Shown here in pieces: positions 48,276 to 63,652 of a stretch of 64,000 bases of DNA; position 1 is the stretch's first letter; every line of letters starts with the position of its first letter. Made by a program: the position numbers and the translations under genes. The stretch covers positions 61,419 through 125,418 of the forward strand of contig NZ_LMJA01000032.1 in NCBI RefSeq assembly GCF_001428895.1, in the 5' to 3' direction. The notes beneath the pieces were generated by a model that was not told the origin of the DNA, made no database searches, and was given only the letters and a program-made list of their open reading frames with translations. This stretch comes from Mycobacterium sp. Root265. Lineage in GTDB: Bacteria > Actinomycetota > Actinomycetes > Mycobacteriales > Mycobacteriaceae.

Positions 48276-48518
48276 CTACTGGGTCCCGTACCGGCGGCGG
48301 AACTTCTCCACCTGTCCGGCCGTATCGAGGTGGCGGTTGGTGCCGGTCCAGAACGGATGAGAGTCCGCGGTGACATCGACGACGACCAGCGGGTAGGTGA
48401 CGCCCTGATAGTCGATGGTGCGGTCGCTGGTGACCGTCGACCGGATCAGGAACGTCTTGCCGGTGCCGGCGTCCTGGAAGACCACCGGGTGGTAGTCGGG
48501 GTGGATATCGGGTTTCAT
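48276..48518 (-). CDS. rpmE2: 50S ribosomal protein L31 type B, zinc-independent
   Basis: The 80-residue type B L31 ([16 protein letters not shown], then [38 protein letters not shown]) lacks the zinc-binding cysteine pairs of L31A. Such C-minus paralogues replace zinc ribosomal proteins when zinc is scarce and are repressed by Zur. It is translationally coupled to the MRF-like gene upstream (ATG and TGA share bases, ATGA). Confidence 0.95.
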
Positions 48519-49705
48519 TCTTCTCCGTTCAACATGATGTGTTCGTCGGCCAGGTCGTGGGACAGCTCGGCGCAGGGATCTTCGTGCCACTCCCCGAACG
48601 GGTCGGGGTAGGAGGCCCAGTCTCCCGGGCGGTCCAGTTCGGCATCGGTGAGCAGTGCTGTGTTCAGAGCAGCCGTGATGAACTCCGGGTTCGCCCCGCA
48701 GACCAGGACGGTCAGGGCGATGTGCCGGTCGCCGAACCGTTCGTCCCAGTGCGAGGCGGCCATGGCAGTGCGCTCCGGGTCGACGTAGGCGCGGTCGCGT
48801 TCGGCCATGCCCGCCAGCCAGCGTCCGGCATCGCCGACGCCGAGACCGCCACCCGCCGATTCGATCCACACCACGGTGTCGGGTTGACTGGCCAGCCAGG
48901 CCCGTCCGCGCACCCGCACCACGCCGTCGAGCAGCGCGTCGATGGCGTGGTGCAGGCGCTCGGGATGAAATGGCCTGCGCGCGTTGAATTCCAGCAGCTC
49001 GACCTCGCCGTCCGGTTGCAGCGGGGGTTGCCCGGCCAGCAGCGAATCGTGCGGGTCGTCGGAACGGCCGCGGCGTGACTGCGCATCGAGATGCTTCAAC
49101 GCCGTGGTGACATGCTGCAGTCCGACGGTGATCCGGGCCCGCGGCGCCAGTCTGCGCAGCACGGCCAGGGTGGCCCGGTCGGCCTCGGTCAAAACCAGCA
49201 CGTCGGCGAACTCGGCCTGGCCGACCACCGCCTGGGCCACGGTGCGGGAAGCGTCGAGCTCGTCGTCGCCGAGCGCCTGGCTGAGCCACACCCCGGTGTC
49301 GACACAGGTCACGACCGCCTGGATCTCGACGTCACGACCGGCCGGGCCATCGATATAGCCCGGCCCCAGCTGCACGGGTGTGTCGTTGATGGCCGTGCAG
49401 ATCGCTTCCGGGTCAAGCCATTCCATCAAGTGCACGACGATGCGATGCACGTCGCTGCGCCGGTGCAGTTGGCGCAGCAGGATCAGCAGGTCGTTGCGGA
49501 TGGTGCAGGTGACACAGCAGTTGGCGATCTCCAGCGGCCACTGGGTGATCACCAGCTTGGTGTCCCGCATACCGCTGACCCGCCGGATCACGACGTGTCC
49601 TTCGGCCGCGTATCCGACCACTGCGGTCCCCGGCGTGCGGATCAGCACGTCGGCGACATCGGTCCCGGCACCCTGCCCGGCTACCAGTACAACTGGCGTC
49701 CGCAT
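48515..49705 (-). CDS. mrf: CobW-like MRF-type protein (ribosome hibernation partner), P-loop lost
   Basis: The 396-residue protein has the CobW/COG0523 layout. The N-terminal position of Walker A reads [14 protein letters not shown] (no GKT), so GTP hydrolysis is unlikely. The metal motif NCCVTCTI keeps Cys63, Cys64 and Cys67. The C-terminal CobW_C part begins [17 protein letters not shown]. In M. smegmatis a CobW paralogue in the Zur-controlled ribosomal operon, MRF, recruits the hibernation factor MPY to ribosomes in zinc starvation; this gene sits in the same context. The ATG faces the L28 operon across a Zur-box region. Confidence 0.85.
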
Positions 49706-49720
49706 CTCATCACACCCTTA

Positions 49721-49739
49721 TCGGTAACGATTGTCATTA
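49721..49739 (-). promoter_or_regulatory. Zur box-like site before the MRF-L31 genes
   Basis: On the minus strand TAATGACAATCGTTACCG keeps the left half of the mycobacterial Zur consensus (AATGANAATNATTNTCATT) well and the right half poorly. It is about 16-35 nt upstream of the mrf ATG. Confidence 0.6.
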
Positions 49740-49776
49740 AGTCGATTCGTACGTTACCGTGTGTCGGTCAGCTTGT

Positions 49777-49794
49777 CGAAAATCGTTTTCATTA
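49777..49794 (+). promoter_or_regulatory. Zur box before the alternative ribosomal protein operon
   Basis: CGAAAATCGTTTTCATTA fits the Zur consensus, with an imperfect dyad around ATCGTT, and lies about 30 nt before the rpmB2 ATG. It is expected to repress the L28-L33-S14-S18 operon when zinc is sufficient. Confidence 0.75.
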
Positions 49795-49822
49795 ACGAGT
49801 GAGCATGTATGAGGAGCCGCCG

Positions 49823-50059
49823 ATGTCTGCGCACTGCCAGGTCACCGGGCGCGCACCGGGTTTCGGTAACCGGGTGTCACATTCGAATCGGCGCACCCGT
49901 CGCCGGTGGAACCCGAATATTCAGGTCAAGACCTATTACCTGCCCTCGGAGGGCCGGCGTATCCGGCTGCGGGTCAGCACCAAGGGCATGAAGGTCATCG
50001 ACCGGGACGGCATCGAGGCGGTCGTCGGTCGGCTGCGCAGGGAAGGGCAGAAGATCTGA
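49823..50059 (+). CDS. rpmB2: 50S ribosomal protein L28, zinc-independent
   Basis: The 78-residue L28 paralogue ([36 protein letters not shown]) keeps a single Cys and lacks the paired zinc-binding cysteines. GAGGAG about 8 nt before the ATG at 49823 decides the start over upstream GTG/ATG codons (49799, 49805). It is first in a four-gene coupled operon. Confidence 0.94.
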
Positions 50060-50226
50060 TGGGCAAGAGTAATGACATCCGGCCGATAGTGAAGCTGAAA
50101 AGCACTGCCGGCACCGGATATACCTACGTCACCCGCAAGAACCGGCGCAACGATCCGGATCGCCTGGTGTTGAAGAAGTACGACCCGGTGCTGCGCAGGC
50201 ATGTCGATTTCAAGGAAGAACGCTGA
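50059..50226 (+). CDS. rpmG: 50S ribosomal protein L33, zinc-independent
   Basis: The 55-residue protein ([23 protein letters not shown], ending [16 protein letters not shown]) contains no cysteine, so it is the zinc-free form. It starts on the last base of the rpmB2 stop (TGATG) and runs into rpsN2 the same way. Confidence 0.94.
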
Positions 50227-50531
50227 TGGCCAAGAAGTCGAAGATCGTCGCCGATGAGCGTCGCCGTGCCATTGTGGCGCGCTACGCCGAGCGGCGCGCC
50301 GAGCTCAAAGACCTGATCCGCAGGCCGGATGCCGATGCAACACAACGTATGTCGGCGCAAGCCGAGCTTGCGCGGATGCCGCGCGACGCCAGTGCGGTCC
50401 GGTTGCGTAACCGCGACGCCGTCGACGGCCGGCCGCGTGGGCACCTGCGCAAGTTCGGGCTGTCCCGGGTGCGCATGCGTGAGATGGCGCACCGAGGTGA
50501 GCTTCCCGGCATCAAGAAAGCGAGTTGGTGA
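50226..50531 (+). CDS. rpsN2: 30S ribosomal protein S14, zinc-independent
   Basis: The 101-residue long (zinc-free) S14 starts [17 protein letters not shown] and ends [24 protein letters not shown]. It has no zinc finger, whereas the housekeeping type Z S14 is shorter and binds zinc. It is coupled to its neighbours by TGATG overlaps. Confidence 0.95.
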
Positions 50532-50785
50532 TGGCACCCCGCGCGCCGAAGAAGCGCAGACCCGCACCGGAGGAGATCAAGCGGCCGCGGCAGAACAAGC
50601 TCAAGGCGCTCGGCGTCACCGAGGTCGACTACAAGGACGTCTCGCTGCTGCGGACGTTCATCTCCGAACGCGGCAAGATCCGTTCCCGGCGGGTCACCGG
50701 GCTCACTCCGCAACAACAGCGCCGGGTCGCGATTGCGATCAAGAACGCCCGAGAGATGGCGTTGCTGCCTTACGGTGGTCCCTAG
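50531..50785 (+). CDS. rpsR2: 30S ribosomal protein S18, zinc-independent
   Basis: The 84-residue S18 paralogue ([49 protein letters not shown]) lacks the cysteines of the C-plus form. It is the last gene of the alternative ribosomal operon. Its end overlaps the convergent bluB gene by 4 bp. Confidence 0.95.
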
Positions 50786-51456
50786 CGATCCGCCAGATCC
50801 TCTGAAGACGTTGCCGTCCAGCTGTTCTCGGCGACGAACTCGGACAGCGGCCGGCCGTGGGTCCAGTCGTCGATCTCCAGGGCCGGGCGGTCCGGGAACT
50901 CCGGCACCGGGCCCAGACACAGGATCGCGACGGGCTCGGCGCCTTCGGGCATGCCGAGCAGGTCGGCAAGGAGGGCGGGTTCGAAGATCGACACCCAGCC
51001 CATGCCGAGGCCTTCGGCACGGGCGGCCAGCCACATGTTCTGGATCGCACAGGACACCGATGCCAGGTCCATCTGCGGCATGGTCCGGCGCCCGAACACG
51101 TGCCGTTGCCGGTCATCGCGCAGCGCGACCACCAGCAGTTCGGCGCACTCCAGGATGCCCTCGACCTTCAGTTCCAGGAATTCGTCACCCCGGGTGCCCA
51201 ACGCTTCGGCGGTGTGCTTGCGTTCCTCGTCGACCAGATCGTGCATGGCGGTGCGCAGGTTCGCGTCGCTGATGCGGATGAAGCGCCACGGCTGCATCAG
51301 TCCCACACTCGGGGCGGCATGCGCCGCCTGCAACAGCCGGGCCAGGACGTCCTCGTCCACCGTGGCGCCCGGCACGAATCGGCGAATGTCCCGGCGTTCG
51401 GCGATGGTCCGGTAGACGGCCCGGCGTTCGGCGGCGCTGAACGCGTGATCGGTCAC
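50782..51456 (-). CDS. bluB: 5,6-dimethylbenzimidazole synthase
   Basis: The 224-residue nitroreductase-fold flavoenzyme cleaves reduced FMN to give DMB, the lower ligand of vitamin B12. Signatures: [31 protein letters not shown] with the catalytic Asp region nearby, and [12 protein letters not shown]. It matches mycobacterial BluB (Rv0306 type). It lies between the zinc operons with no zinc box of its own, and complements the cobalt/B12 module at 29-31 kb. A general nitroreductase is the alternative. Confidence 0.88.
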
Positions 51457-51465
51457 GCCGTCAGC

Positions 51466-52668
51466 CTAGAGACCCCGGGCCGCCCTGGTGCTACGCAGCC
51501 CCGCGGCGGCCGCGCCGAGGCAGGCCGCGGCGACGGCACCGGCAAACCACGGGAACACCGAGGCCAGATCCCACCGGGTGGCGGCCCAGCCGGCAATCAG
51601 GGTCGGGACGGCCATCGCGGTGTAGGCCAGCAGGTAGAACGCCGACATCGTCTCGCCGCGCCGCGTCGCGGGCACCACATCGGAGAGGTGGCGCAGCGAG
51701 CCGCCGAATCCCAGTCCGAATGTCGCGCCGAGCAGCACCGCGGCCACGAACACCAGCTCCCAGCGGTGGGTCAGCAGGACCGGGATCGTCAGCAGCAGCG
51801 ACACGGCCATCCCGACGTCACCGATGATCGCCGAGTACCTGGCCGGCAGCCGGGTGGCGGCGAGCTGGGCCATGGCGGCGGCGAACGCGGTGGTGGCGAC
51901 CACCGCACCGCCGAAGACGAGATTGTCGATGTGCGTCTGCTGGGCGGCCAGTGACGGGTACAGCGAGAGCAGCACACCGAGCACCGACCAGGACGCCATG
52001 GCGCCCAGGGCCGAGAACCAGAAGTCGGCGCGGATCTCCGCGGGCACAGCCGGTTTGGCCAGCCGGATGGGACCCTGGGTGCGCGCGGTGTGTGGCTCGT
52101 CGAGTGCCAGCAGCCCGACGCCGATGACCAGGCAGATGACCGCGACAACGGCATACGGTGTGCGCAGCGGATGCGGTGCGTACTGGGCCAGCAGCGCCGA
52201 ACCGATGATCGCGACTGTCATGCCGATGTTGAAGCTGACGCCACTGAGCTGGCCGGTGCGCACCCCGTGGTTCGGGCGCAGGTCCAGCAGTGCCGCCGCG
52301 CCGGCGACGACGATGGAGCCGACCGCGGCGCCGTGGATGGTGCGGGCCAGCAGCAGCATCGCCATGCTGTCCGCGATCAGGAACACCCCGAGCCCGATCA
52401 GCAGCGCCACCAGCGCCCCGATCAGGACCGGCTTGCGGCCGACGACATCGGAGATCTTGCCCGACACCAGCACCGCCGCCAGGGCCGCCAGCGCGTACAC
52501 CGCGAAGACGATGGTGGTGGCCAGCGGAGACAGATGCCAGTTCGCCTCATAGATCCCGTACAGCGGGGCGGGCAGTCCGGAGACGCCCAGTGCGACGCCG
52601 CTCAGTACGAGTACGAGGGGGTAGGCCCAGCGTTGCACCGGGCTGGTCGCAGGGTCGAATGCCACCAT
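51466..52668 (-). CDS. MFS transporter
   Basis: The 400-residue major facilitator has about 12 hydrophobic segments and the loop 2-3 motif GKISDVVGRKPVLIG. It resembles drug/multidrug exporters; the substrate is unknown. GAGGAGG 7 nt before the ATG (52666-52668) fixes the start. It is divergent from an ArsR-type regulator with two copies of a palindromic operator between them, so it is probably that regulator's target. It starts 9 bp after bluB. Confidence 0.87.
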   Translation of the reverse strand: MVAFDPATSPVQRWAYPLVLVLSGVALGVSGLPAPLYGIYEANWHLSPLATTIVFAVYALAALAAVLVSGKISDVVGRKPVLIGALVALLIGLGVFLIADSMAMLLLARTIHGAAVGSIVVAGAAALLDLRPNHGVRTGQLSGVSFNIGMTVAIIGSALLAQYAPHPLRTPYAVVAVICLVIGVGLLALDEPHTARTQGPIRLAKPAVPAEIRADFWFSALGAMASWSVLGVLLSLYPSLAAQQTHIDNLVFGGAVVATTAFAAAMAQLAATRLPARYSAIIGDVGMAVSLLLTIPVLLTHRWELVFVAAVLLGATFGLGFGGSLRHLSDVVPATRRGETMSAFYLLAYTAMAVPTLIAGWAATRWDLASVFPWFAGAVAAACLGAAAAGLRSTRAARGL

Positions 52669-52689
52669 CGCAGGCAACCTCCTCGGCTG

Positions 52690-52707
52690 GTTTGACGGAC
52701 ATCGAAC
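52690..52707. promoter_or_regulatory. Operator half-perfect palindrome, copy 1
   Basis: GTTTGACGGACATCGAAC is a near-copy (two changes) of the palindrome at 52727-52744. It sits 22 bp upstream of the MFS ATG. Confidence 0.65.
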
Positions 52708-52725
52708 TGGATCCAGGCTACGCTG

Positions 52726-52745
52726 GGTTTGACAGACATCAAACC
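52726..52745. promoter_or_regulatory. Operator palindrome, copy 2
   Basis: GGTTTGACAGACATCAAACC has perfect 7-bp arms (GGTTTGA/TCAAACC). It lies immediately upstream of the ArsR-type gene, overlapping the likely transcription start (TACGCT -10 at 52719-52724). Autoregulation is likely. Confidence 0.7.
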
Positions 52746-52767
52746 GAATATGACCGAGGTTATTCCG

Positions 52768-53103
52768 ATGCCGAACAATGCGCTGGTCACCGAGTACCCG
52801 GTGCATGCGGTGGGTCCGGTGCAGAGGGTGCTGGCGGCGATCCACGACCCGGTGCGTCTGGAGGTCGTCCGTCGCCTCTACAACGCCGGGACGCCACTGC
52901 AGTGCGGGGTGCTCTACGACGGCATCAACAAATCCACCGCCACCCACCATTTCAAGATTCTGCGTGAGGCCGGCATCACCGAGCGCATGGTGATCGACGG
53001 GTTGACCTATCAGAAGCTGCGTCTCGACGAGGTCGAGTCGGCCCTGCCCGGATTGCTGGCCAGTGTCGTCGGCGGCGCCAACCGGGACGCCGCCGCTAGC
53101 TGA
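52768..53103 (+). CDS. ArsR-family helix-turn-helix regulator
   Basis: A winged-helix protein of about 111 residues. The HTH is DPVRLEVVRRLYNAG, then YDGINKSTATHHFKILREAGITERM with the recognition helix. No clear metal-binding cysteine pair is seen (one Cys in QCGVL), so it probably senses an organic ligand, fitting the divergent MFS exporter. ATG 52768 has GAGG about 8 nt upstream; ATG 52750 and TTG 52729 are possible longer starts, but the latter lies within the operator. Its end overlaps pxpA by 8 bp. Confidence 0.82.
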   Translation: MPNNALVTEYPVHAVGPVQRVLAAIHDPVRLEVVRRLYNAGTPLQCGVLYDGINKSTATHHFKILREAGITERMVIDGLTYQKLRLDEVESALPGLLASVVGGANRDAAAS

Positions 53104-53851
53104 ACGGCGCGGGCGTCATCCCGTGCTCGGAAAGCCGTGTCCGGACCGCCTCGGCGATCTGCACGGCCCCGGGCGAGTCCCCGTGCACGCACACCGATTC
53201 CACGCTGATCGGTATCTCGGTGCCGTCCTGCGCGGTGACCCGGCCCTCGGTGACCATGCTCAGCACCCGGACCGCGATCTGCTCGGCGTCGCGCAGTACC
53301 GCGCCCGGTTCGCGGCGGGACACCAATTGCCCGTCGGGCCGGTAGGCGCGGTCGGCGAAGGCCTCGGCCACGGTACGCAGACCGAATTCTCTTGCAGCGC
53401 CGAAGAACACCGAGCCCGCCAGCCCGAGCACCGGCAGCCCGGGGTCCACCGCGTGCACGGCCGCCGCGACGGCGCGAGCCTGCGGCTCATTGGTGACGAT
53501 CGAGTTGTAAAGCGCCCCATGTGGTTTGACGTAGGTCACCGATGACCCCGCAGCGGTGGCGATCGCGGACAGCGCACCGATCTGGTAGATCACCTCGGCG
53601 GTCAGCTCGTCGGGATCCACATCGATGAAGCGTCTGCCGAACCCGGCCAGATCGCGATAGCTGACCTGTGCACCGATGCGCACGCCGCGCTGGGCCGCGG
53701 CCCGGCAGACCCGCAGCAGCCCCGCCGGATCGCCGGCGTGGAAACCACAGGCCACGTTGGCCGAGGTGACGATGTCGAGCATGGCGTCGTCGTCGCCGAG
53801 GGTCCACACCCCGAAACCCTCGCCGAGGTCGGCATTGAGATCGACAGTCAC
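53096..53851 (-). CDS. pxpA: 5-oxoprolinase subunit A (LamB/YcsF family)
   Basis: The 251-residue protein (VDLNADLGEGFGVWTLGDDDAML, SANVACGFHAGDP, VKPHGALYN, AFADRAYRPDGQLVSR, CVHGD) is the PxpA subunit of bacterial 5-oxoprolinase. PxpB and PxpC, its usual partners, are not adjacent. It is 6 bp downstream of aztA on the same strand, but its metabolic role is unrelated to zinc uptake, so co-transcription with aztA would be coincidental or read-through. Confidence 0.88.
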   Translation of the reverse strand: MTVDLNADLGEGFGVWTLGDDDAMLDIVTSANVACGFHAGDPAGLLRVCRAAAQRGVRIGAQVSYRDLAGFGRRFIDVDPDELTAEVIYQIGALSAIATAAGSSVTYVKPHGALYNSIVTNEPQARAVAAAVHAVDPGLPVLGLAGSVFFGAAREFGLRTVAEAFADRAYRPDGQLVSRREPGAVLRDAEQIAVRVLSMVTEGRVTAQDGTEIPISVESVCVHGDSPGAVQIAEAVRTRLSEHGMTPAPFS

Positions 53852-53857
53852 GGTTTT

Positions 53858-54520
53858 CTAGCCTAGTGCGCGTCGATGCTCGTCGAGGTCGATCCGGTGC
53901 TCGGCGGAATCGATCAGCGCGTTGTCGTGAGTGGCGGCCACCACCGTGGTGCCGTGGGCCGCCAGCCTTCTCAGATGCCCGATCACCATGGCCGCCGATG
54001 CGGCGTCCAGCCCGGTGGTCGGCTCATCGAGCAGTAACAGCGGGGCCTCCTGCGCGAAGGCCTGAGCCAGCAGGACGCGTTGCCGTTGGCCGCCGGAGAG
54101 TTCGCCGAGCGTGCGGTGACGCAGATCGGCGAGTCCGAGTTCGGTCAGCCAGAATTCGACGACGGCACGGTCGTCGGCTGCGGGCCGGCGCAGCAGGCCG
54201 AGGTGGCGCCACCGCCCCATCATGACGGCCTGCGCCGCGGTCAAGGGGAATGAATCGGTGACCGCGCTGCGCTGCACGGCGAACGCGATATTGCGCGTAC
54301 CGGGGGCGACGGTGCCGGCGTCGGGGTGATGCACACCGGCCAGTAGTCCGAGCAGCGTCGACTTCCCACAGCCATTGGAACCCACGACGGCGGTGACGGC
54401 GCCCGAGGCGATCGACAGCGTCAGCCCACGGAAAACCGTTGTGCCGGAAAAGCCGAAGTCGATCCCGGACACCTCGATGGCGTCGGTGACCCGAGTCACC
54501 TTATTGAAAATGAGTTTCAT
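53858..54520 (-). CDS. aztA: Zinc ABC transporter ATP-binding protein AztA
   Basis: The 220-residue ATPase has Walker A GSNGCGKST, signature LSGGQRQRVL and Walker B LLLLDEP, and resembles AztA/ZnuC. It is divergent from the permease-fusion aztB, which belongs to the same importer. The listed ATG (54518-54520) lies inside the Zur box, so a GTG at 54497-54499 giving VTRVTDAIEV may be the real start; it would follow a leaderless-like 5' end. Zinc import driven by this ATPase is inferred from family and context. Confidence 0.85.
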   Translation of the reverse strand: MKLIFNKVTRVTDAIEVSGIDFGFSGTTVFRGLTLSIASGAVTAVVGSNGCGKSTLLGLLAGVHHPDAGTVAPGTRNIAFAVQRSAVTDSFPLTAAQAVMMGRWRHLGLLRRPAADDRAVVEFWLTELGLADLRHRTLGELSGGQRQRVLLAQAFAQEAPLLLLDEPTTGLDAASAAMVIGHLRRLAAHGTTVVAATHDNALIDSAEHRIDLDEHRRALG

Positions 54521-54522
54521 TA
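54503..54522. promoter_or_regulatory. Zur box at the aztA/aztB divergent promoter
   Basis: ATTGAAAATGAGTTTCATTA is close to the mycobacterial Zur consensus. One site can serve both aztA and aztB; it overlaps the annotated aztA start codon. Confidence 0.8.
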
Positions 54523-54540
54523 CTGATAAGACTCTACGGC

Positions 54541-56520
54541 ATGACGTCCTGGCTCATCGACCCCTTCCAGGCGGACCTGGTCCTTCGAGCCTTGGTGGCC
54601 GGGGTGACCGCCGCCTGTCTGTGCTCTCTGGTCGGCTGCTGGGTGTTGTTGCGGCGCAGTGTCTTCCTGGGTGAAGCCATGACCCACGGCATGCTCCCGG
54701 GTGTCGCCGTCGCCGCTCTGCTGGGTGGCAGCCTGATGGCCGGTGGCCTGGCCGCCGCCCTGATCATGGCCTTCGGTGTCGCCGCGATCGGCAGATCCTC
54801 GAAGCTGTCCGCCGATACCAGCATCGGACTGTTGCTGGTGGGCATGCTCGCGCTCGGGGTCATCGTGGTGTCCCGGTCCCAGAGCTTCGCCGTCGACCTC
54901 ACCGGTTTCCTGTTCGGGGATGTCTTCGCGGTGCGCACCACCGATCTCGCGGTGCTCGGCGTCGCGCTGCTGCTGACACTGGGTGCCGTGGTCGCGGGGC
55001 ACCGTGCCTTTGTCGCGGTGACCTTCGATCCACGTAAGGCCGCCACCCTCGGTCTGCGTCCGCAGCTGGCGATCCCGGCGCTCACGGTCCTGATGGCAGT
55101 GGCCATGGTTGCGTCGTTCCACGTGGTCGGGACCCTGCTGGTGCTCGGTCTGCTGGTCGCTCCGCCGGCCGCGGCGCTGGCATGGGCCACCTCGATACCC
55201 CGTGTCATGGCGCTGTCGGCCGTCATCGGGTCACTCGCGGTGTACGTCGGCCTGCTGATCTCCTGGCATGCCGGTACGGCGGGTGGCGCGACGATCGCCG
55301 GTGTCGCGGTGCTGCTGTTCTTCGTGTCGGCGCTGTTGGCCCAGCTGCGCATCCGGTGGACGAAGGCCGCGGCGGTGGCGGTGGTTTCCTGCGCGGTGGC
55401 CGGATGCGCCACCGCGCCGACGCCGGCGCCGGCTGCCGGTACGGGCGACGAGGTTGCCGTCGAGGACGGCGCCCGCGAGGCCGACGGGCCCCTGACGAAG
55501 CTGGTGCTCGTCGACCCCGTGACCGGTGCCACCTCGGTGTACGACGCGGTCGACGAGGTCGAGACCCCGGTCGGCACCCACGGACCGGTGACCGGACTGG
55601 AGGGTGATGGACGGTTCGCCTACCTGCAGACCCGCAGCGGCACCACTGTCGTCGATGCCGGGGCGTGGACCTTCGACCACGGAGACCACTACCACTACTT
55701 TTCCGGCACTGCGGCCGAGGCCGCGACGCTCGATGTGTCGGCGGCCTCGGTCAGCGCGAGCAATTCCATCGTGGCGCTCCGTTCACCCTCGGGGACAACC
55801 GAACTGATCGACCGGGAACGCCTCGGGCAGAAGTCCGTCGCACCGTCCGAACTCACCGTCCCGCCGGATGTGGCCGCGGCCGCGCCGTACGGCAGCAGGC
55901 TGGTGACGGTCACCTCCGGCGGCCGCCTGCAGGTCACCGACGACGCCGGCACCTCCGAGTTGGCGGGAGACTGCCCGCAGCCCTCCTGGGTGATGACCAG
56001 CAGGCGGGCCGTGGTGTTCGGATGCGAGACCGGCGCCGTCCGGGTCACCGGAGGTGACAAGGATCTGACGGTGACGGCGGCCCCGTATCCGGCCGACGCA
56101 CCGTCCCAACGTCCGGCGAGCATGGAGCACCGCGACCGGGCCGACGTGTTCGCGGGACTGGCCGCCGGGAACGTCTGGGTACTCGACAGCCGTCAGCGAT
56201 CCTGGACGCTGATCCCGGTCCCGGACGCGGTGGCGACCAACACCGCCGGCGACGGGACCGTACTGGTGCTGCACCGCGACGGGACACTCAGCGCCTTCGA
56301 CATCGGAACCAGAACCGAGACGGCACGAATCGCGTTGTTCCCCGGCCCCATTCCGCACGACGGCCCGCAGCCGGTGGTCGATCTGGACTCCGATCGCGCG
56401 TATGTCAACAACGCCGCCACCCACGAGGTGTACGAGATCGACTATGCCGACGGACTGCGCGTCGCCCGCACCCTGCGCACCGAGGTGGCGCCCGGTCTCA
56501 TGGTGGAGGCCGGCCGGTGA
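54541..56520 (+). CDS. aztB: Zinc ABC permease AztB fused to lipoprotein-like metallochaperone domain
   Basis: A 659-residue protein. Residues 1-270 are an AztB/ZnuB-type permease with about eight membrane helices ([41 protein letters not shown]). Residues 275-289 look like a lipoprotein signal ([15 protein letters not shown], Cys289). The rest is a secreted beta-propeller-like domain with a His-rich site DHGDHYHYF (379-387), related in layout to AztD proteins. No stop separates the parts, so it is a true fusion. AztC and AztD follow with a GTGA overlap. Separate permease and AztD genes are the norm. Confidence 0.85.
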
Positions 56521-57416
56521 GCCGCCTGCTGGCTGTCCTCGCGCTGCTCGGGGCGCTGCTCACCGCGTGTGCGGACAGCGCCGGCGGTAGCGAGATCGTG
56601 GTGACCACCAACATTCTCGGCGACGTGGTGCGCAACGTGGTGGGTGATGCCGCGACCGTGCGGGTGCTCATGCAACCCAACGCCGACCCGCATTCGTTCG
56701 GGGTGTCCGCGCAGGACGCCGCGGCGATGGGCAGCGCCGGACTGATCGTCCACAACGGACTCGGACTGGAAGAGAACATCATCCGAAACGTGGAAAGCGC
56801 ACGGGCACAAGGCGTTCCCGCGCTCGCGGTCGGTGATCACATCGATCCCCTCGAGTACCGCGGCGGCGACAGTGCGGGCACGCCCGACCCGCATTTCTGG
56901 ACCGATCCGCAACGCATGATCACGGCCGTCGACGTCATCGAGCAGACGATCACCCGTGAGGTGGACGGGATCGACACCGCGGCAGTGACCCGCAACGCCG
57001 ACACCTACCGCGAACAACTGCGCGCCCTCGATCGGTCCATGGGTGACGGTTTCGGCGCCCTGGCGCCGGAGCGCCGCAAGCTCGTCACCAATCACCACGT
57101 GCTCGGCTACCTCGCCGAGCGCTTCGGCTTCGCCGTGATCGGCGCCGTCGTGCCCAGCGGCACCACCCTGGCGGCACCCAGTCCGTCGGACCTGCAATCT
57201 CTGGTCGGGGCCATCGAATCCGCCCGGGTGCCGGCCATCTTCGTCGACTCCTCACAGCCGGAGAAGCTGGCCCGGGTGCTCGCCGAAGACGCCGGTGTCG
57301 AGGTGCGCATCGTGCCGCTCTACAGCGAATCCCTCGGCCCGCCCGGCACGCCGGGCGCCACCTACCTCGACATGATGCGCGCCAACACCGACGCCATCGT
57401 CACTGGTCTGCGATAG
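56517..57416 (+). CDS. aztC: Zinc ABC transporter substrate-binding lipoprotein AztC
   Basis: The 299-residue cluster A-I binding protein has lipobox LLTAC (Cys18). Candidate zinc ligands are His59 (PNADPHSFG), His126 (DPHFW), His193/194 (TNHHVLGYLAERFG) and the C-terminal Asp of VDSSQPEK. AztC delivers zinc to AztB and, in Paracoccus, receives it from AztD. The long His-rich loop of ZnuA is short here, as in AztC. Starts by GTGA overlap with aztB. Confidence 0.9.
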   Translation: MSRLLAVLALLGALLTACADSAGGSEIVVTTNILGDVVRNVVGDAATVRVLMQPNADPHSFGVSAQDAAAMGSAGLIVHNGLGLEENIIRNVESARAQGVPALAVGDHIDPLEYRGGDSAGTPDPHFWTDPQRMITAVDVIEQTITREVDGIDTAAVTRNADTYREQLRALDRSMGDGFGALAPERRKLVTNHHVLGYLAERFGFAVIGAVVPSGTTLAAPSPSDLQSLVGAIESARVPAIFVDSSQPEKLARVLAEDAGVEVRIVPLYSESLGPPGTPGATYLDMMRANTDAIVTGLR

Positions 57417-57434
57417 CAGAGAAAAGGAGCCAAA

Positions 57435-58625
57435 ATGTCCCATCCGCGGTGGCTTTACCGCGTCGGAGCCGTGTCGTTCGCGACGGCCGCGCTGGCGGCG
57501 TGCTCATCGAGCACCGAGAACGCCGACAGCACAGCCAGTTCCGAGTCGACCTCGAGCGCGCCGATCGCCGAACCGCTGGTGGCCACCTACGACGGGGGCC
57601 TCTACATCCTCGACGGCGAGACGCTCGAGGTGAGACAGGACATCCCACTCGAGGGATTCCTGCGGGTCAACCCGGCAGGGGACCACGGCCACGTGTTGGT
57701 CACCACCACCGAGGGTTTCCGCATCCTCGATGCCGCGGGCGGGCAGCTGACCGAGGACACCTTCCCCGCCGTCGAGGCCGGTCATGTCACGCCGCACGGC
57801 GAGAACACCGTGCTGTTCGCCGACGGCACCGGGGAGATCACCGCCTTCGATCCGCATGACCTGGAAAAGGGCGGTATGCCCGAAACCCGGAAGTTCACCA
57901 CCCCCGAGGCGCATCACGGGGTGGCCGTGATCCTGGCGGACGGCACCCTGCTGCACACCCTGGGCAACCCGGACACCCGCGTCGGCGCCGTTGCGCTGGA
58001 CGGGGACCGCGAGATCGCGCGCAGCGAGGAGTGTCCGGGCGTGCACGGCGAGACCGCGGCCGCGGACGAGGTGGTGATTCTGGGCTGCGAGAACGGCGTG
58101 CTGGAGTTCGCCGACGGAAAGTTCACCAAGATCGCCAGCCCCACGCCGTACGGGCGGGTCGGCAACACCCGGGGTCACGAAGACTCGCCGGTGGTGCTGG
58201 GGGACATGAAGGTCGATGCGGATGCCGAAATGGAACGTCCCGAGCAGTTCGCGCTCGTCGACACCACCACCGACAAGATGCGGCTGGTGAAACTTCCACC
58301 GGGCGTGAGCTATTGGTTCCGTTCACTGGGACGCGGCCCGCAGGCCGAGGCGTTGATCCTCGGTACCGACGGCAAGCTGCATGTGTTCGATCCGGTGACC
58401 GGTGACCTGGTCACGTCGATCGAGGTGGCTGCGCCATGGACCGAGCCCGACGACTGGCAGCAGCCAGGTCCTGCTGTCTTCACCCGTGAGGGCGCGGTCT
58501 ACGTCAGCGACCCGGCGGCCAAGCAGATCCACCTGGTGGATCTGGCGGCGGGCACCGTCACCGAATCGGTGACGCTGGAGCAGACGCCCAACGAGCTGAG
58601 CGGGGCCGTCGGCCACGACCACTGA
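57435..58625 (+). CDS. aztD: Zinc metallochaperone AztD
   Basis: The 396-residue secreted protein has a lipobox LAAC (Cys23), a Ser/Thr-rich linker, and a beta-propeller-like domain with repeated strands (EPLVATYDGGLYILDGE, TTEGFRILDAAGG, ILGTDGKLHVFDP) and many histidines (DHGHVLV, HVTPHGEN, PEAHHGVA, C-terminal GHDH). AztD loads AztC with zinc in the periplasm of Paracoccus; here the site is outside the membrane. It is the second propeller-type chaperone in this operon, after the one fused to AztB. A terminator hairpin follows. Confidence 0.9.
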   Translation: MSHPRWLYRVGAVSFATAALAACSSSTENADSTASSESTSSAPIAEPLVATYDGGLYILDGETLEVRQDIPLEGFLRVNPAGDHGHVLVTTTEGFRILDAAGGQLTEDTFPAVEAGHVTPHGENTVLFADGTGEITAFDPHDLEKGGMPETRKFTTPEAHHGVAVILADGTLLHTLGNPDTRVGAVALDGDREIARSEECPGVHGETAAADEVVILGCENGVLEFADGKFTKIASPTPYGRVGNTRGHEDSPVVLGDMKVDADAEMERPEQFALVDTTTDKMRLVKLPPGVSYWFRSLGRGPQAEALILGTDGKLHVFDPVTGDLVTSIEVAAPWTEPDDWQQPGPAVFTREGAVYVSDPAAKQIHLVDLAAGTVTESVTLEQTPNELSGAVGHDH

Positions 58626-58638
58626 GCAGAACAGCAGT

Positions 58639-58664
58639 CCGGCCGGGGGCACGCCCCCGGCCGG
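58639..58664. terminator. Hairpin between convergent aztD and cobW-type gene
   Basis: CCGGCCGGGGGC (58639-58650) and its perfect complement (58653-58664) leave a tight AC loop. It lies 13 bp after the aztD stop and 8 bp before the end of the convergent gene, so it can serve both strands. Confidence 0.7.
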
Positions 58665-58672
58665 GTTCTGTG

Positions 58673-59851
58673 TCAGTGCGAATGCTGTTGGGTCACACCC
58701 CAGGCCGGCAGCGGATCGGAGAAACCGAGCCACGCCGACTCGCCCTCGGCGATCTCGTCATCGGTGAGCAGCGCGCCGTTCAGCAGTCGGTAGACCTTGT
58801 CCCGGTCGAGTTCGACGCCGATGAACACGATCTCCTGGCCGGGCGTGATGTCCGTGTTCGACCAGTATTGGGCCGGTTCGATCACCAGGTTCGGTCCGGC
58901 CTGCGACCAGATCGCGGCAATCGATGGGCGGCTCGCGACCCAGCAGAATCCCTTGCTGCGCAACACCCTGGTGGTCTTGGCGAGTGCACCGGCGAGCCGA
59001 TGCGGATGGAACGGCCGGTCGGACCGGAAGGTCATCGAGCTGATGCCGTATTCCTCGGTCTCCGGCGTGTGTCCCTCGGCAATCTCCTCATCCCAGCCGG
59101 GAGACTGCGCCGCGGCGATCGGATCGAAGAGCCCGGTGCCCAGTACTTCTGCGATCTCGACGACACCGTGCCGAGTTCTGATCAGCTTTGCGGTGGGGTT
59201 GAGCCGGCGTAGCAGCGTCTCGACGGTGCCCAGGTGCGCCGGGCTCACCAGATCGGTCTTGTTGAGCAGCAACACATCTGCGAACTCGACCTGGTCGGTC
59301 AGCAGGTCGGCGATGCTGCGCGCGTCGCCCTCACCCGCGGAGAGGTCGCGGTCGGCCAGTGCCTCGCCTCTGGCGATCTCGGTGAGGAAGGTGGACGCGT
59401 CCACCACCGTCACCATGGTGTCCAGTTTCGCGAGCTGCCCCAGCTGGAAGCCGTCCTCGAACTCCCAGTCGAAGGTCGCTGCCACCGGCATCGGCTCGGA
59501 GATCCCCGTCGACTCGATGACCAGCTGGTCGAAACGGTTCTGCCGGGCCAGCGTGCCGACCGCCTCGACCAGATCCTCGCGCAGCGTGCAGCAGATGCAA
59601 CCGTTGGTCAGTTCGACCAGCTTCTCGTCGGTTCGGAGGGCAGAAGCGAAGCGACCCGGGGAATGATCACGTTCCAGGTGTCCCTGCCCGGCGATCAGGG
59701 CGGCGTCGATGTTGATCTCGCTCATGTCATTGACGATGACCGCGACGCGGCGGCCCTCGCGGTTGCCGAGGATGTGGTTGAGCAGGGTGGTCTTGCCGGC
59801 ACCGAGAAAGCCGGACAGGACGGTGACCGGAAGTAGAGCGGGGGCTGTCAT
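58673..59851 (-). CDS. CobW/COG0523 GTPase (zinc metallochaperone, ZigA/YjiA type)
   Basis: The 392-residue GTPase has intact Walker [10 protein letters not shown], the metal site GCICC, an NKTDL motif and a CobW_C domain starting [16 protein letters not shown]; the tail ends QQHSH. Zinc-starved bacteria use such proteins to deliver zinc to client enzymes. AGGAG precedes the ATG, next to a Zur box shared with the divergent znuA-like gene. Residues near 62-72 ([11 protein letters not shown]) come from copy C of the dispersed repeat, read antisense, and interrupt a stretch where relatives read directly into the RTDEKLVE segment. Confidence 0.9.
59637..59666 (+). repeat. Dispersed ~30-bp repeat, copy C (inside cobW-type gene)
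   Basis: The core GGGCAGAAGCGAAGCGACC and CGGGGAAT match copy A except for two substitutions. The host gene is on the opposite strand, so the repeat is read antisense here (SPGRFASAL). Confidence 0.65.
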
Positions 59852-59859
59852 GACACTCC

Positions 59860-59882
59860 TTATTGATAATGATTATCAATAA
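59860..59882. promoter_or_regulatory. Zur box 1 at the cobW/znuA divergent promoter
   Basis: A near-perfect 23-bp palindrome (TTATTGATAAT / ATTATCAATAA around a central G) matches the Zur consensus very well. It abuts the AGGAG of the minus-strand cobW-type gene and is about 50 nt before the znuA-like start. Confidence 0.9.
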
Positions 59883-59906
59883 GACATTGTCCGATGCGGC
59901 GTTTAC

Positions 59907-59927
59907 TAATGCAAACGGTTATCGTTA
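59907..59927. promoter_or_regulatory. Zur box 2, close to the znuA-like start
   Basis: TAATGCAAACGGTTATCGTTA fits the TAATGANAA-N3-TTNTCATTA layout with a few mismatches. It ends 6 nt before the GTG at 59933, making the upstream ATG at 59894 unlikely as the start. Confidence 0.6.
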
Positions 59928-59932
59928 TCGGC

Positions 59933-60916
59933 GTGATCTCGTTTGCGTCCTCCCGCGCCCTGGCCGCGGGTCTGCTGCTGGCCGTCCCCTTTGCGCTGAG
60001 TGCCTGCGGAACGAACGACGGACCGGCTCCGGCGTCGACCGCCGCCCAGGGGGACTGCCCGACCGAGCCCGTCGACGTGGTGGTCAGCGTCGACCAGTGG
60101 GGCAAGATCGTGTCCTCGCTCGCCGGAGCCTGCGCCAACGTGACGACAGTGCTGTCCGGCTCGTCGGTCGACCCGCACGATTTCGAACCGGCACCCTCGG
60201 ACGCTGCCGCCTTCGAAGGCGCCCAGTTGGTCGTGGTCAACGGCGGCCACTATGACGAATGGGCGGCCAAATTGGCCGAGAACAGCGCCCCGGAAGCACC
60301 GGTCGTGGACGCCATGGCGATCCTCGGTGGCGATCACGCGGGCCACGACCACGAAGACCACGATCATGAGGGCCACGATCCTGACGACGCCAACCCGCAC
60401 GCCTGGTACAGCCCGGTCGCGGTGACCGACGTCGCCACCGCGGTGACCGCCGAGCTCACCAAGCTCGCCCCGGCCGCAGGCGAATACTTCGCCGCCCGGA
60501 ACACCGCGTTCACCGCGGCGCTGCAGCCTTACCGCGATCTCATCGCCCAGATCAAGGCCGGCGCCACCGGTAAGAGCTACGCCGCCACCGAGAGCCTGTT
60601 CGACGACATGGCCGCCGAACTGGGGCTGGCCAACCGCACCCCGCAGGGCTATCAGGTCGCCTCGTCGAACGAAACCGATCCCTCCCCGGCCGACCTCGAC
60701 GCATTCCTGCGTCTGCTGTCGGATCGCGGCGTGGACGTGCTGCTCTACAACACCCAGACCGAGGGCTCGGTGCCCGAACAGCTGCGCGCCGCGGCCGAGA
60801 GCGCCGGTGTTCCGGTGGTCGATGTCACCGAAACGGTGGCACCGGGCGCGCCGACGTTCGAGGCTTGGCAGGTGGATCAACTCACCGCTCTTGCCGAGGC
60901 TCTTGGTGTCAACTAA
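59933..60916 (+). CDS. znuA: Zinc ABC transporter substrate-binding lipoprotein, ZnuA-like
   Basis: About 327 residues. A signal peptide ends FALSAC (Cys25). The long loop GDHAGHDHEDHDHEGHDPDD is the zinc-sensing/recruiting loop of ZnuA proteins, followed by ANPHAWYSP. Two Zur boxes lie upstream. GTG 59933 is preferred because ATG 59894 lies upstream of the second box. Its stop overlaps the ATPase start (GTG 60906). With the two following genes it forms a complete second zinc importer. Confidence 0.9.
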   Translation: MISFASSRALAAGLLLAVPFALSACGTNDGPAPASTAAQGDCPTEPVDVVVSVDQWGKIVSSLAGACANVTTVLSGSSVDPHDFEPAPSDAAAFEGAQLVVVNGGHYDEWAAKLAENSAPEAPVVDAMAILGGDHAGHDHEDHDHEGHDPDDANPHAWYSPVAVTDVATAVTAELTKLAPAAGEYFAARNTAFTAALQPYRDLIAQIKAGATGKSYAATESLFDDMAAELGLANRTPQGYQVASSNETDPSPADLDAFLRLLSDRGVDVLLYNTQTEGSVPEQLRAAAESAGVPVVDVTETVAPGAPTFEAWQVDQLTALAEALGVN

Positions 60917-61685
60917 TCCGGTGTCCGATGACGCGCTTGTCTTCGACGATGTCAGCGTCGTCCGTGGCGGCCGGCTGATCTGGTCGGAAGGCACCTTCGC
61001 CATCCCGGCCGGCGGCATCGTGGCCGTGATCGGATCCAACGGCTCGGGCAAGTCGACGCTGCTGCAGGTCGTGCTCGGCCTGCTGCCGGTGGCATCCGGA
61101 TCGGTGCAGGTGCTCGGCGGGCGGCCCGGGGCCAACAACGACGCCATCGGGTACGTGCCGCAGGACTATGTGGCCGGCGCCGGGGAGGCGATCCGCGCGC
61201 GCGACGCCGTGATGCTGGGACTCACCGGTCGGCGGTGGGGCGTGCGTCGCGACACCGCGGCCGACAAGGCCCGGGTCACCGACGCGCTGGAGGCCGTCGA
61301 AGCCGGCGAGTTCGCCGACCGACGGGTGTCCCAGCTGTCCGGCGGGCAGCGTCAACGCATCGCACTGGCCAACGCCCTGGTGTCCCGCCCGCGCCTGCTC
61401 ATCCTCGACGAACCGCTCGCCGCGCTCGACCTGCGCAACCAGCACGAGATCGTGCAGCTGCTGTCCCGGCTGAACTCCGAGTACGACGTGACCATTCTCG
61501 TTGTCGCCCATGACCTCAATCCGCTGCTCTCGGTACTGGACAGCGCGGTGTACCTGCTCGACGGGCACGCCCATCACGCCGCCATCGATCAGGTCGTCGA
61601 CGCCGATCTGCTGACCCACCTCTACGGCACCACGGTGGCGGTGGCCAACACCCTGCAGGGGCAGATGTACATGAGGACCACCTAG
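60906..61685 (+). CDS. znuC: Zinc ABC transporter ATP-binding protein, ZnuC-like
   Basis: The 259-residue ATPase has Walker A GSNGSGKST, Q-loop IGYVPQDYV, signature LSGGQRQRIAL, Walker B LLILDEP and the His switch VVAHDLNPLL. GTG 60906 overlaps the znuA-like end by 11 bp; GTG 60921 is an alternative. It is the motor of the second zinc importer, expressed in one operon with the binding protein and permease. Confidence 0.9.
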   Translation: MSTNPVSDDALVFDDVSVVRGGRLIWSEGTFAIPAGGIVAVIGSNGSGKSTLLQVVLGLLPVASGSVQVLGGRPGANNDAIGYVPQDYVAGAGEAIRARDAVMLGLTGRRWGVRRDTAADKARVTDALEAVEAGEFADRRVSQLSGGQRQRIALANALVSRPRLLILDEPLAALDLRNQHEIVQLLSRLNSEYDVTILVVAHDLNPLLSVLDSAVYLLDGHAHHAAIDQVVDADLLTHLYGTTVAVANTLQGQMYMRTT

Positions 61686-62540
61686 ATGGGCAGTACCCAG
61701 GTGTATCTGGCGCTGGGCTATCAGGAGAACTGGTGGCAGATCCTGACGTCGGCGTTCATGCGCAATGCCTTGATCGGCGGGACATTGGTGGCCCTGGCCG
61801 CCGGTCTGATCGGCTACTTCATCATCGTGCGCAATACCGCGTTCGCCGCGCATGCGCTGGCCCATATCGGGCTGCCCGGAGCCACGGGTGCCGCCTTGCT
61901 CGGCCTGCCCGTGGTGCTCGGGCTGGGCGTGTTCTGCATCGGCGGCGCCTTGGTGATCGGGGCGATGGGTAAGCGCGCCGGTGACCGTGAGGTCACCACC
62001 GGCACGGTGCTGGCGCTGGCGACCGGCTTCGGCTTGTTCTTCAACTCGCTGGCCACCAAGAACTCGTCGACGCTGACCAATGTGCTGTTCGGCAATCTGC
62101 TGGCCATCACCCACCAGCAGTTGCTGACGTTCACCGCGCTGCTGCTGGTGATCGCCGCGACCGTCGTCATCGTGTACCGCCCCTTGCTGTTCGCCTCGGT
62201 GAACGCTCAGGTCGCCGAGGCCAAGGGCGTTCCGGTGCGGGCATTGTCGGTCATTTTCATGGCGCTGCTCGGCCTGTCCGTGACGATGGCCGTGCAGGCC
62301 GTCGGCACCTTGCTGCTGTTCGCACTGGTCGTCACCCCGGCCGCGACCGCGATCATGCTGACCGCGCGACCGCTGGCGGCGATGGCGATCTCCACGGTGA
62401 TCAGCCTGGTTTCGGTGTGGGCGGGCCTGGCGTTGTCGGCGCTGTTCAACATGCCACCGAGCTTCGTCATCGTCACCATCGCGTGCGCCATCTGGCTCGC
62501 GGTGTGGTCGGGTAACCGGATCGGCGCCGTCGTCCGCTAG
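61686..62540 (+). CDS. znuB: Zinc ABC transporter permease, ZnuB-like
   Basis: The 284-residue permease has about eight membrane helices. Family stretches: FIIVRNTAFAAHALAHIGLPGATGAALLG, LFGNLLAITHQQ, AKGVPVRALSVIFMALLGLSVTMAVQAVGTLLLFALVVTPAATAIMLT. It starts directly after the znuC-like stop. Metals other than zinc (Mn, Fe) are possible for this family, but the Zur boxes point to zinc. Confidence 0.9.
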   Translation: MGSTQVYLALGYQENWWQILTSAFMRNALIGGTLVALAAGLIGYFIIVRNTAFAAHALAHIGLPGATGAALLGLPVVLGLGVFCIGGALVIGAMGKRAGDREVTTGTVLALATGFGLFFNSLATKNSSTLTNVLFGNLLAITHQQLLTFTALLLVIAATVVIVYRPLLFASVNAQVAEAKGVPVRALSVIFMALLGLSVTMAVQAVGTLLLFALVVTPAATAIMLTARPLAAMAISTVISLVSVWAGLALSALFNMPPSFVIVTIACAIWLAVWSGNRIGAVVR

Positions 62541-62551: not shown

Positions 62552-63652
62552 ATGTCCAGAAGTCCGGCGCCGCGGAGGCGCGCGACGCTGGCATCGCTGG
62601 CCGCCGAACTCAACGTTTCGCGCACCACCATCTCCAATGCCTACAACCGGCCCGACCAGTTGTCGGCCGATCTGCGCGAGCGGGTGCTCGCCGCGGCAAA
62701 GGAATTGGGCTACGCCGGCCCCGACCCGGTCGCGCGGTCGCTCCGTACCCGTAGGGCCGGTGCGGTCGGCCTGATGATCACCGAGCCGCTCAACTATGCG
62801 TTCAGCGATCCGGCGGCCCTGGATTTTGTTGCCGGGCTTGCCGAATCGTGTGAGGAGGCCGGGCAGGGTCTGCTGCTGGTGGCGGCCGGCCCCAACCGCA
62901 GCGTCGACGACGGTTCGGCGGCGGTGCTCTCCGCGGGCGTCGACGGATTCGTCGTCTATTCGGCCTCCGACGACGACCCTTACCTACCGGTTCTGCTGCA
63001 ACGCCATCTGCCGATCGTCGTCGTCGACCAGCCCGGGGATGTCCCCGGCGCGTCGCGGGTCTGCATCGACGATCGTGCGGCCATGCGTGAACTCGCGGAA
63101 CATGTTGTGGGATTGGGCCATCGCGAGATCGGTGTGCTGACCATGCGGCTCGGTCGGGAATGGCCGCACGAGAGCACCAGACCCATGGTCGCCGATCCGG
63201 AGCGGCTCAACACCCCGCATTTTTTGGTCCAGCGTGAGCGGGTGCACGGGGTGTACGACGCGATGAGCGCGGCCGGACTGGATCCGGCGTCGGTGACCGT
63301 GGTGGAGAGCTACGAACATCTGCCGCAGTCCGGTGGTGCGGCGGCCGAGGTGGCGCTGGCCGCCAACCCGCGCATCACCGCCCTGATGTGCACCGCCGAC
63401 GTGTTGGCGCTCTCGGCGATGGACTATCTACGGGCGCACGGCATCTTCGTGCCTGGGCAGCTGACGGTGACCGGTTTCGACGGGGTGCCCGAGGCACTGG
63501 CCCGCGGCCTGACGACCGTCACCCAGCCCAGCATGGAGAAGGGCCGCCGCGCCGGGGACCTGCTGCACAACCCGCCGCGCTCGGGTCTGCCGGTCGTCGA
63601 GGTGCTCGGCACCGAGGTGGTGCGGGGACGCACCTCCGGCCCACCCGCCTAG
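62552..63652 (+). CDS. LacI-family transcriptional regulator
   Basis: The 366-residue repressor has an N-terminal HTH (TLASLAAELNVSRTTISNAYNRPDQLS, residues about 12-36) and a periplasmic-binding-protein-like sensor domain (AVGLMITEPLNYAFSDP, DGFVVYSASDDDP, VTGFDGVPEA). It is collinear with the LacI-type regulator Rv3575c of M. tuberculosis as remembered; ligand unknown. It follows the znu-like operon but is likely old core, marking the right edge of the zinc island. Confidence 0.87.
   Translation: MSRSPAPRRRATLASLAAELNVSRTTISNAYNRPDQLSADLRERVLAAAKELGYAGPDPVARSLRTRRAGAVGLMITEPLNYAFSDPAALDFVAGLAESCEEAGQGLLLVAAGPNRSVDDGSAAVLSAGVDGFVVYSASDDDPYLPVLLQRHLPIVVVDQPGDVPGASRVCIDDRAAMRELAEHVVGLGHREIGVLTMRLGREWPHESTRPMVADPERLNTPHFLVQRERVHGVYDAMSAAGLDPASVTVVESYEHLPQSGGAAAEVALAANPRITALMCTADVLALSAMDYLRAHGIFVPGQLTVTGFDGVPEALARGLTTVTQPSMEKGRRAGDLLHNPPRSGLPVVEVLGTEVVRGRTSGPPA

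Follow-up and report, generated by a model that had tools for sequence, protein, structure and literature searches.

Introduction

In Mycobacterium smegmatis, the genes MSMEG_6045-6071 are induced both by the zinc chelator TPEN and by deletion of zur (PMC7174638). Importers of this species were named ZnuABC and ZnuABC2 in a report which recalls an earlier double mutant with a growth defect rescued by zinc (PMC13098993), and a zinc-responsive island is on record for M. avium ssp. paratuberculosis (PMC4298942). We analyse a window of 64,000 nucleotides from Mycobacterium sp. Root265 (NCBI RefSeq assembly GCF_001428895.1, contig NZ_LMJA01000032.1, positions 61,419 to 125,418, forward strand), which contains a zinc-starvation gene cluster of the kind already described in M. 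smegmatis; the island as such is not new. The subject of this report is its AztABCD zinc importer, in which the two metal sites of the AztD chaperone appear to be divided over two proteins, AztD and a second propeller, AztD2, the latter being fused to the permease AztB. Both the fusion and the divided pair are apparently undescribed; among the open-access papers listed, no title or beginning of an abstract reports AztD fusions, divided AztD sites or internal lipoboxes.

The AztABCD system of Paracoccus denitrificans and the AztD of Citrobacter koseri share the importer families, the propeller fold and the ligand motifs with the window, but there a single AztD holds both zinc sites, whereas here two proteins are involved, one of them mostly permease-fused (PMC6689063, PMC7463823). 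In Paracoccus AztD, site 1 is formed by His124, His167 and His218 in the central pore, and site 2, which feeds AztC, by His99, His102, Asp104 and the C-terminal His408. The purpose of site 1 was stated to be unclear, and zinc bound there was not passed on in vitro (PMC6689063). Except for the C-terminal His, the ligands are conserved in at least 95% of AztD homologues (PMC6689063, PMC7463823). In Corynebacterium glutamicum, cg0040-cg0043 likewise encode a Zur-controlled ATPase, permease, binding protein and secreted protein, but the operon has one secreted protein, and the available portion of the article does not mention a permease fusion (PMC2823685).

Results

Predicted zinc sites of AztD and AztD2

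The Azt module of the window is laid out as follows (coordinates are positions in the window, here and below).

53858..54520, minus strand: aztA, ATPase (NF040873, 233.1 bits, cut-off 220; start probably GTG 54499)
54499..54522, plus strand: Zur-type site, 35.9 bits
54541..55404, plus strand: aztB, permease part (residues 1-288), then an internal lipoprotein-type signal (NF040871 over residues 4-256, 326.9 bits, cut-off 280)
55405..56520, plus strand: AztD2 propeller domain (residues 289-659, from the invariant lipobox-type Cys289; HGDHYH at 380-385)
56517..57416, plus strand: aztC, zinc-binding protein (NF040870, 370.2 bits, cut-off 350)
57435..58625, plus strand: aztD, lipoprotein with the site-1 histidines only (NF038015, 435.1 bits, cut-off 400; alignment to 6ck1)

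AztB, 659 aa long, thus consists of a permease followed by a second propeller of the AztD fold, a domain that was overlooked in a first-pass annotation made from the sequence. AztD2 showed the AztD propeller fold when tested for it. Because it reaches 27.6 bits against the NCBIfam AztD family, with a cut-off of 400, it is described here as an AztD-fold relative and not as an AztD; its identity to solved AztD chains is 16-20%. The predicted structure of the whole fusion was poor in the permease part (mean predicted local distance difference test score, pLDDT, 68.1) and was not used for topology. The AztD encoded at 57435-58625 has His at all three site-1 ligands of 6ck1 and lacks the site-2 motif; it is called AztD on its curated score and site 1 only, and is a site-1-only variant.

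The comparison was extended to 44 AztDs and 44 AztD2s. Both proteins were present at 43 loci, with AztD alone at L033 and AztD2 alone at L095, which lies at a contig end; three loci are second copies from the same genomes, leaving 41 distinct proteins of each kind. The site-1 His triad was found in all 44 AztDs (41/41 distinct), and the site-2 motif HGxHx[HDE] in none of them. Conversely, HGxHxH was present in every AztD2 (44/44; 41/41 distinct), where the triad is not kept (one His in 3 x 44 aligned positions). Among the 44 AztD2 sequences, no column outside HGxHxH has His in 90% or more; its three His columns do, and the motif is invariant while mean column identity is 49%. Many site-1-only AztDs keep the C-terminal His of site 2, and part of the old site may remain in them. 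On these motifs, the two metal sites of AztD are divided over two proteins, site 1 residing in AztD and site 2 in AztD2, both of which would bind zinc.

The AztB-AztD2 fusion and its internal lipobox

Permease and AztD2 are fused at 34 of the 44 loci (31 distinct) and split at 5; the other 5 carry AztD2 and AztD without aztABC. In genome G077, aztB and the AztD2 gene are separate with a 4-base overlap, and AztD2 begins there as an ordinary lipoprotein. A hydrophobic stretch followed by a lipobox-type Cys lies at the same place in all 44 AztD2s (permissive pattern), preceded by basic residues except in L111. The same combination was seen in all five AztD2s of a class-wide set (one fused, four split). 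Across 22 fused proteins, Cys289 is the sole invariant column between 261 and 309, most neighbouring columns being variable. That the Cys has been kept in the fused proteins suggests a continuing role in lipidation, whether or not cleavage occurs as well. At L092:5155-8052, a single open frame runs through AztB, AztD2 and AztC, the frame changing close to where AztD2 ends; it is either a triple fusion or a sequencing error.

In the loci without aztABC (L100 and L102-L105, which we take to be mostly from M. fortuitum-group species), AztD2 and AztD lie side by side. AztB-like matches in those five genomes are to ZnuB only in four, and L103 has in addition a 40%-identical permease elsewhere. That the two propellers are kept together here supports the view that they act as a pair, perhaps serving ZnuA.

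Elsewhere, a known zinc acceptor-importer fusion joins the acceptor to the binding protein, whereas in the window the joining is to the permease. The acceptor of that fusion presumably has a different fold from AztD2.

Class-wide control

A search of 118 genomes of the class detected AztD in 19. After removal of two genomes of the own genus and of G079 (fragmented matches), 16 remained as a control set, with the strand chosen by codon GC. Nine have a two-site AztD, and none of these has an AztD2 at E 1e-10 (in five, AztD itself was the only match). Five have a site-1-only AztD, and all five have an AztD2, with HGDHxH in four cases and HIDHFH in one. G175 and G095 carry an AztD whose site 2 is defective or missing, plus a second AztD elsewhere with both sites. 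A site 2 is therefore kept somewhere in 16/16 control genomes (Fisher p 9e-5, or 0.005 if only AztD2 counts, uncorrected for shared ancestry).

In a tree of 53 proteins, rooted by midpoint only, the 19 AztD2s fall into a single group (100/100). Site-1-only AztDs correspond to three changes on this tree, of which well-supported branches force one only; repeated loss of site 2 in AztD is suggested by this topology. Loss of the AztC loop histidines was also considered as a correlate of AztD2 and was dropped, as the only AztC-like protein seen next to a two-site AztD (L120) lacks them too.

Zur-type sites and gene content of the block

The remaining features of the block and its flanks are the following.

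47322..48236, minus strand: MBL-fold hydrolase, flank, 39 nt behind rpmE2 (weak NCBIfam matches only)
48276..48518, minus strand: rpmE2, L31 type B without cysteines (NF002462, 123.2 bits, cut-off 86)
48515..49705, minus strand: MRF, ribosome-hibernation recruitment factor (NF047431, 549.8 bits, cut-off 375)
49719..49742, minus strand: Zur-type site, 33.1 bits
49771..49794, plus strand: Zur-type site, 37.2 bits
49823..50059, plus strand: rpmB2, L28 (TIGR00009)
50059..50226, plus strand: rpmG2, L33 (NF001860)
50226..50531, plus strand: rpsN2, S14 (NF006477)
50531..50785, plus strand: rpsR2, S18 (TIGR00165)
50782..51456, minus strand: bluB, without a Zur site of its own (TIGR02476, 246.6 bits, cut-off 150)
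51466..52680, minus strand: MFS exporter, divergent from ArsR, without a Zur site (weak MFS matches below cut-off)
52768..53103, plus strand: ArsR-type regulator (NF033788, 25.3 bits, below the cut-off of 55)
53096..53851, minus strand: pxpA, 6 nt behind aztA (NF003814)
58673..59851, minus strand: COG0523 GTPase, ZigA-like
59861..59884, minus strand: Zur-type site, 39.9 bits
59907..59930, minus strand: Zur-type site, 30.6 bits
59933..60916, plus strand: znuA, inferred start (PF01297)
60906..61685, plus strand: znuC, inferred start
61686..62540, plus strand: znuB (PF00950)
62552..63652, plus strand: LacI-family regulator, flank, 11 nt behind znuB (PF00356)

A Zur matrix was trained on 11 published M. 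smegmatis sites (leave-one-out scores of 17.2-37.3 bits). Over the 64 kb it gave exactly five sites above 30 bits (30.6-39.9), all in three divergent promoters, and the maximum in 100 simulated windows (first-order Markov) was 18.5 bits; the five Zur-like sites that the first-pass annotation had placed at divergent promoters were thus recovered. Two sites lie in promoter 1, between MRF-rpmE2(-MBL) and rpmB2-rpmG2-rpsN2-rpsR2, one in promoter 2, between aztA(-pxpA) and aztB-aztC-aztD, and two in promoter 3, between the COG0523 GTPase and znuACB(-lacI). The sixth-best score was 11.4 bits, overlapping one of the five strong sites. Site 59907-59930 is identical at 24/24 positions to the published M. 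smegmatis site upstream of MSMEG_6048, which is itself in the training set. Allowing at most 2 mismatches, the Zur core TGAAAATSRTTTTCA occurs at 9 places in the 6.67-Mb genome (reversed control, 0); three of the nine are within the locus, including the only two with a single mismatch. The motif evidence supports a Zur-type zinc-starvation block, to which Zur of Root265 is predicted to bind.

The called start codons of three genes were reconsidered by inspection. For aztA, GTG 54499 is likelier than the called ATG 54520, because the latter falls within the Zur site. For znuA, GTG 59933 appears likelier than the called ATG 59894, which lies upstream of a Zur site, and a lipoprotein signal follows the GTG. 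The znuC start is probably GTG 60906.

Two zinc importers (AztABCD and ZnuACB), four plus one zinc-independent ribosomal proteins, MRF and a COG0523 GTPase had been read from the sequence, and curated families agree. NCBIfam cut-offs were exceeded by L31 type B, MRF, L28, L33, S14, S18, BluB, PxpA, AztA, AztB, AztC and AztD, and Pfam matches were obtained for ZnuA (ZnuA family) and ZnuB (ABC-3). The COG0523 GTPase stays below the cut-off of its nearest NCBIfam family, ZigA (477.8 bits vs 600). No CxxC pair remains in the sequences of the five ribosomal proteins, and an intact P-loop was not seen in the MRF protein sequence. No RNA element reached Rfam gathering scores within the 64-kb window.

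The M. smegmatis cluster MSMEG_6045-6071 shares with the window the zinc-independent ribosomal proteins, MRF, the COG0523 GTPase, ZnuABC, a second, Azt-type importer, the terminal MBL gene and Zur sites; mspD, a P-type ATPase, a methyltransferase and a lipoprotein are only in the former, and bluB, MFS/ArsR and pxpA only in the latter (PMC7174638). The counterpart of the MBL gene, MSMEG_6071, is induced 5.2x by TPEN and 28x in a zur mutant (PMC7174638). With this induction and a distance of 39 nt from rpmE2, which precedes it on the same strand, the MBL gene probably belongs to the regulon, in the rpmE2 transcript, rather than being a mere flank. MSMEG_6051 was called a 'pseudo' transporter (PMC7174638). 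The two-gene form of G077, which also has an MspA-family porin at the locus, suggests that the MSMEG_6051 region may instead consist of two overlapping genes.

Variation of the interval across the genus

The interval between the MBL and lacI genes was compared in 78 genomes of the genus, the own genome being counted in all figures. LacI was present in 66/78 and MBL in 72/78; among the 64 genomes with both, the two genes are on the same contig and on opposite strands in 58, and on different contigs in the other 6. The first-pass annotation had taken these flanks for near neighbours in M. tuberculosis; in the sampled relatives they are neighbours. Over the 58 intervals, length ranges from 0.9 to 31 kb. 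As pxpA is found in 56/58, it looks like a probable ancestral resident of the locus, and the reading as a passenger was rejected.

Two different ABC metal importers share the slot between pxpA and lacI (L017-L074), in opposite orientations and mutually exclusive. ZnuACB in plus orientation occupies 18/58 intervals, and a distinct importer (about 36% identical) in minus orientation 32/58; none has both and 8 have neither. Two examples of the minus-orientation type were scanned and fell among zinc/manganese importers without reaching a cut-off. A Zur-type site of at least 26 bits was found at the upstream end of the binding-protein gene, on the lacI side, in 32/32 minus-orientation importers, and one of at least 20 bits near znuA in 18/18 plus-orientation loci, so that 50/58 intervals hold one of the two alternative importers with a Zur-type site. 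A Zur site of 33 bits is found 64 bp before lacI at L063:2805, in an interval showing no ABC importer, and may be left over from an importer that was lost.

Modules with zinc-independent ribosomal proteins, MRF, COG0523, ZnuACB(+) or Azt occur in 19/58 intervals, in varying combinations (L28+L33 in 12, MRF in 13, COG0523 in 10, BluB in 16, MFS/ArsR in 9). AztB matches were detected in 11 of the 78 genomes. Eight have both AztB pieces, all within the interval and in one case (G077) as two genes; G002, G012 and G044 were not counted, the match covering only part of the permease or being a distant one. In L012 (G002, 4.0-Mb genome), the AztB piece has 71 residues, 79% identical, in an 88-aa frame about 8 kb from lacI, and appears to be what is left of a decayed Azt module. 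The bluB gene of 16/58 intervals, which encodes a B12-ligand enzyme, is always accompanied by pxpA, directly adjoining it in 13 (not in the window), and 12/16 of these intervals have zinc modules. Further modules were seen in the same slot at L075:3810-11728, L069:4599-5258 and L033:3693-12459: an F420-0/BtuC-type ABC importer, an FhuF-like protein, an SO_0444-like permease, a P-type metal ATPase, an MspA-family porin and a methyltransferase, several of them below cut-off. They are possibly a metallophore uptake set. We conclude that the interval is a patchwork of independent modules, produced by accretion at a zinc locus.

Discussion

The reading we favour, and hold to be somewhat probable, is that of a Zur-repressed locus built module by module, with an AztABCD variant whose AztD chaperone is divided over two propellers in relay. 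It would have been assembled at a chromosomal site where most of the genomes sampled from the genus already have a metal importer accompanied by a Zur-type site. When zinc falls, Zur would leave the five sites and the three divergent promoters would fire, yielding zinc-free ribosomal proteins with MRF, ZnuACB with the COG0523 GTPase, and the AztABCD importer. The ribosome would then switch to the zinc-free proteins and MRF. The AztD lipoprotein would capture zinc at its central-pore site 1, the AztD2 hairpin (site 2) would take it from AztD and hand it to AztC, and AztC would feed AztB. As most AztD2s form the C-terminal part of an AztB fusion protein, the zinc donor would be made together with the channel. 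We infer both the direction of the relay, AztD to AztD2 to AztC, and cleavage or lipidation at Cys289.

A bolder proposal, put forward tentatively and in our view rather doubtful, is that actinobacterial AztABCD works by a two-propeller relay in which the pore site of AztD loads the hairpin site of AztD2, and AztD2, made as a permease tail, is lipidated or cleaved at the internal lipobox, one frame giving both a channel and a lipid-anchored donor. If this were true, the C. koseri crystal, with its hybrid contact of site 1 and site 2, would come near the physiological geometry. In that crystal the site-2 feature of each chain reaches into the pore of its neighbour and two zinc ions are bound, a contact judged most likely to be an artefact since mixed Paracoccus mutants did not pass zinc (PMC6689063).

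Several observations weigh against a relay through the divided pair. When Paracoccus AztD loaded only at site 1 was mixed with an AztD having only site 2, zinc was not transferred (PMC6689063), and given this result the relay may not exist. G021 (L033), of the own genus, has a site-1-only AztD at a locus with a Zur site before it; AztD2 was not detected in this genome, and AztB had no match at E 1e-20. The five loci without aztABC mean that the pair is not tied to AztB. Lastly, the scan of named genomes relied on a peptide pattern with HG in it, a choice that favours AztD2s with site 2; 10/44 AztD2s do not match this pattern, and the matches from the genus and class-wide searches are independent of it.

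The locus could also be an ordinary Zur island as in M. smegmatis, with AztB-AztD2 a fused accessory and the propellers parallel zinc traps without hand-over. In its favour, such an island is published, and site 1 of Paracoccus AztD failed to feed site 2; the strict complementarity of the lost sites (41/41 distinct proteins each way) and the co-occurrence in a sample drawn regardless of AztD2 suggest interdependence instead, and we regard this explanation as unlikely, though to be taken seriously. The strong divergence of AztD2 from AztD, down to 16-20% identity with the solved chains, would suit a loss of chaperone function, with AztD2 now a sensor bound to the permease or a structural cap, and HGxHxH structural. 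We find this improbable, as the motif stays invariant against a mean column identity of 49% and equals the published transfer site. Least probable by far is that the whole block was inserted or expanded as a unit in the MBL-LacI interval, as proposed in the first-pass annotation. The 8/8 genomes of the sample with both AztB pieces do have them in this interval, but the modules vary independently over 58 intervals of very different length, pxpA is nearly always there, and the slot accommodates either of two importers that have Zur-type sites; we rejected it on these grounds.

AztD site 1 is conserved, yet its zinc could not be passed on in vitro (PMC6689063). In these Actinobacteria the sites stand on separate proteins and can be examined singly without mutations, and the divided pair offers a natural test of the role of site 1. 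Encoding a transporter and a lipoprotein partner in a single frame, by way of a conserved lipobox-type Cys inside a permease, would be unusual, and the 'pseudo' transporter gene of M. smegmatis may be functional. Across the genus, the comparison suggests that alternative importers with Zur-type sites take up one and the same chromosomal slot.

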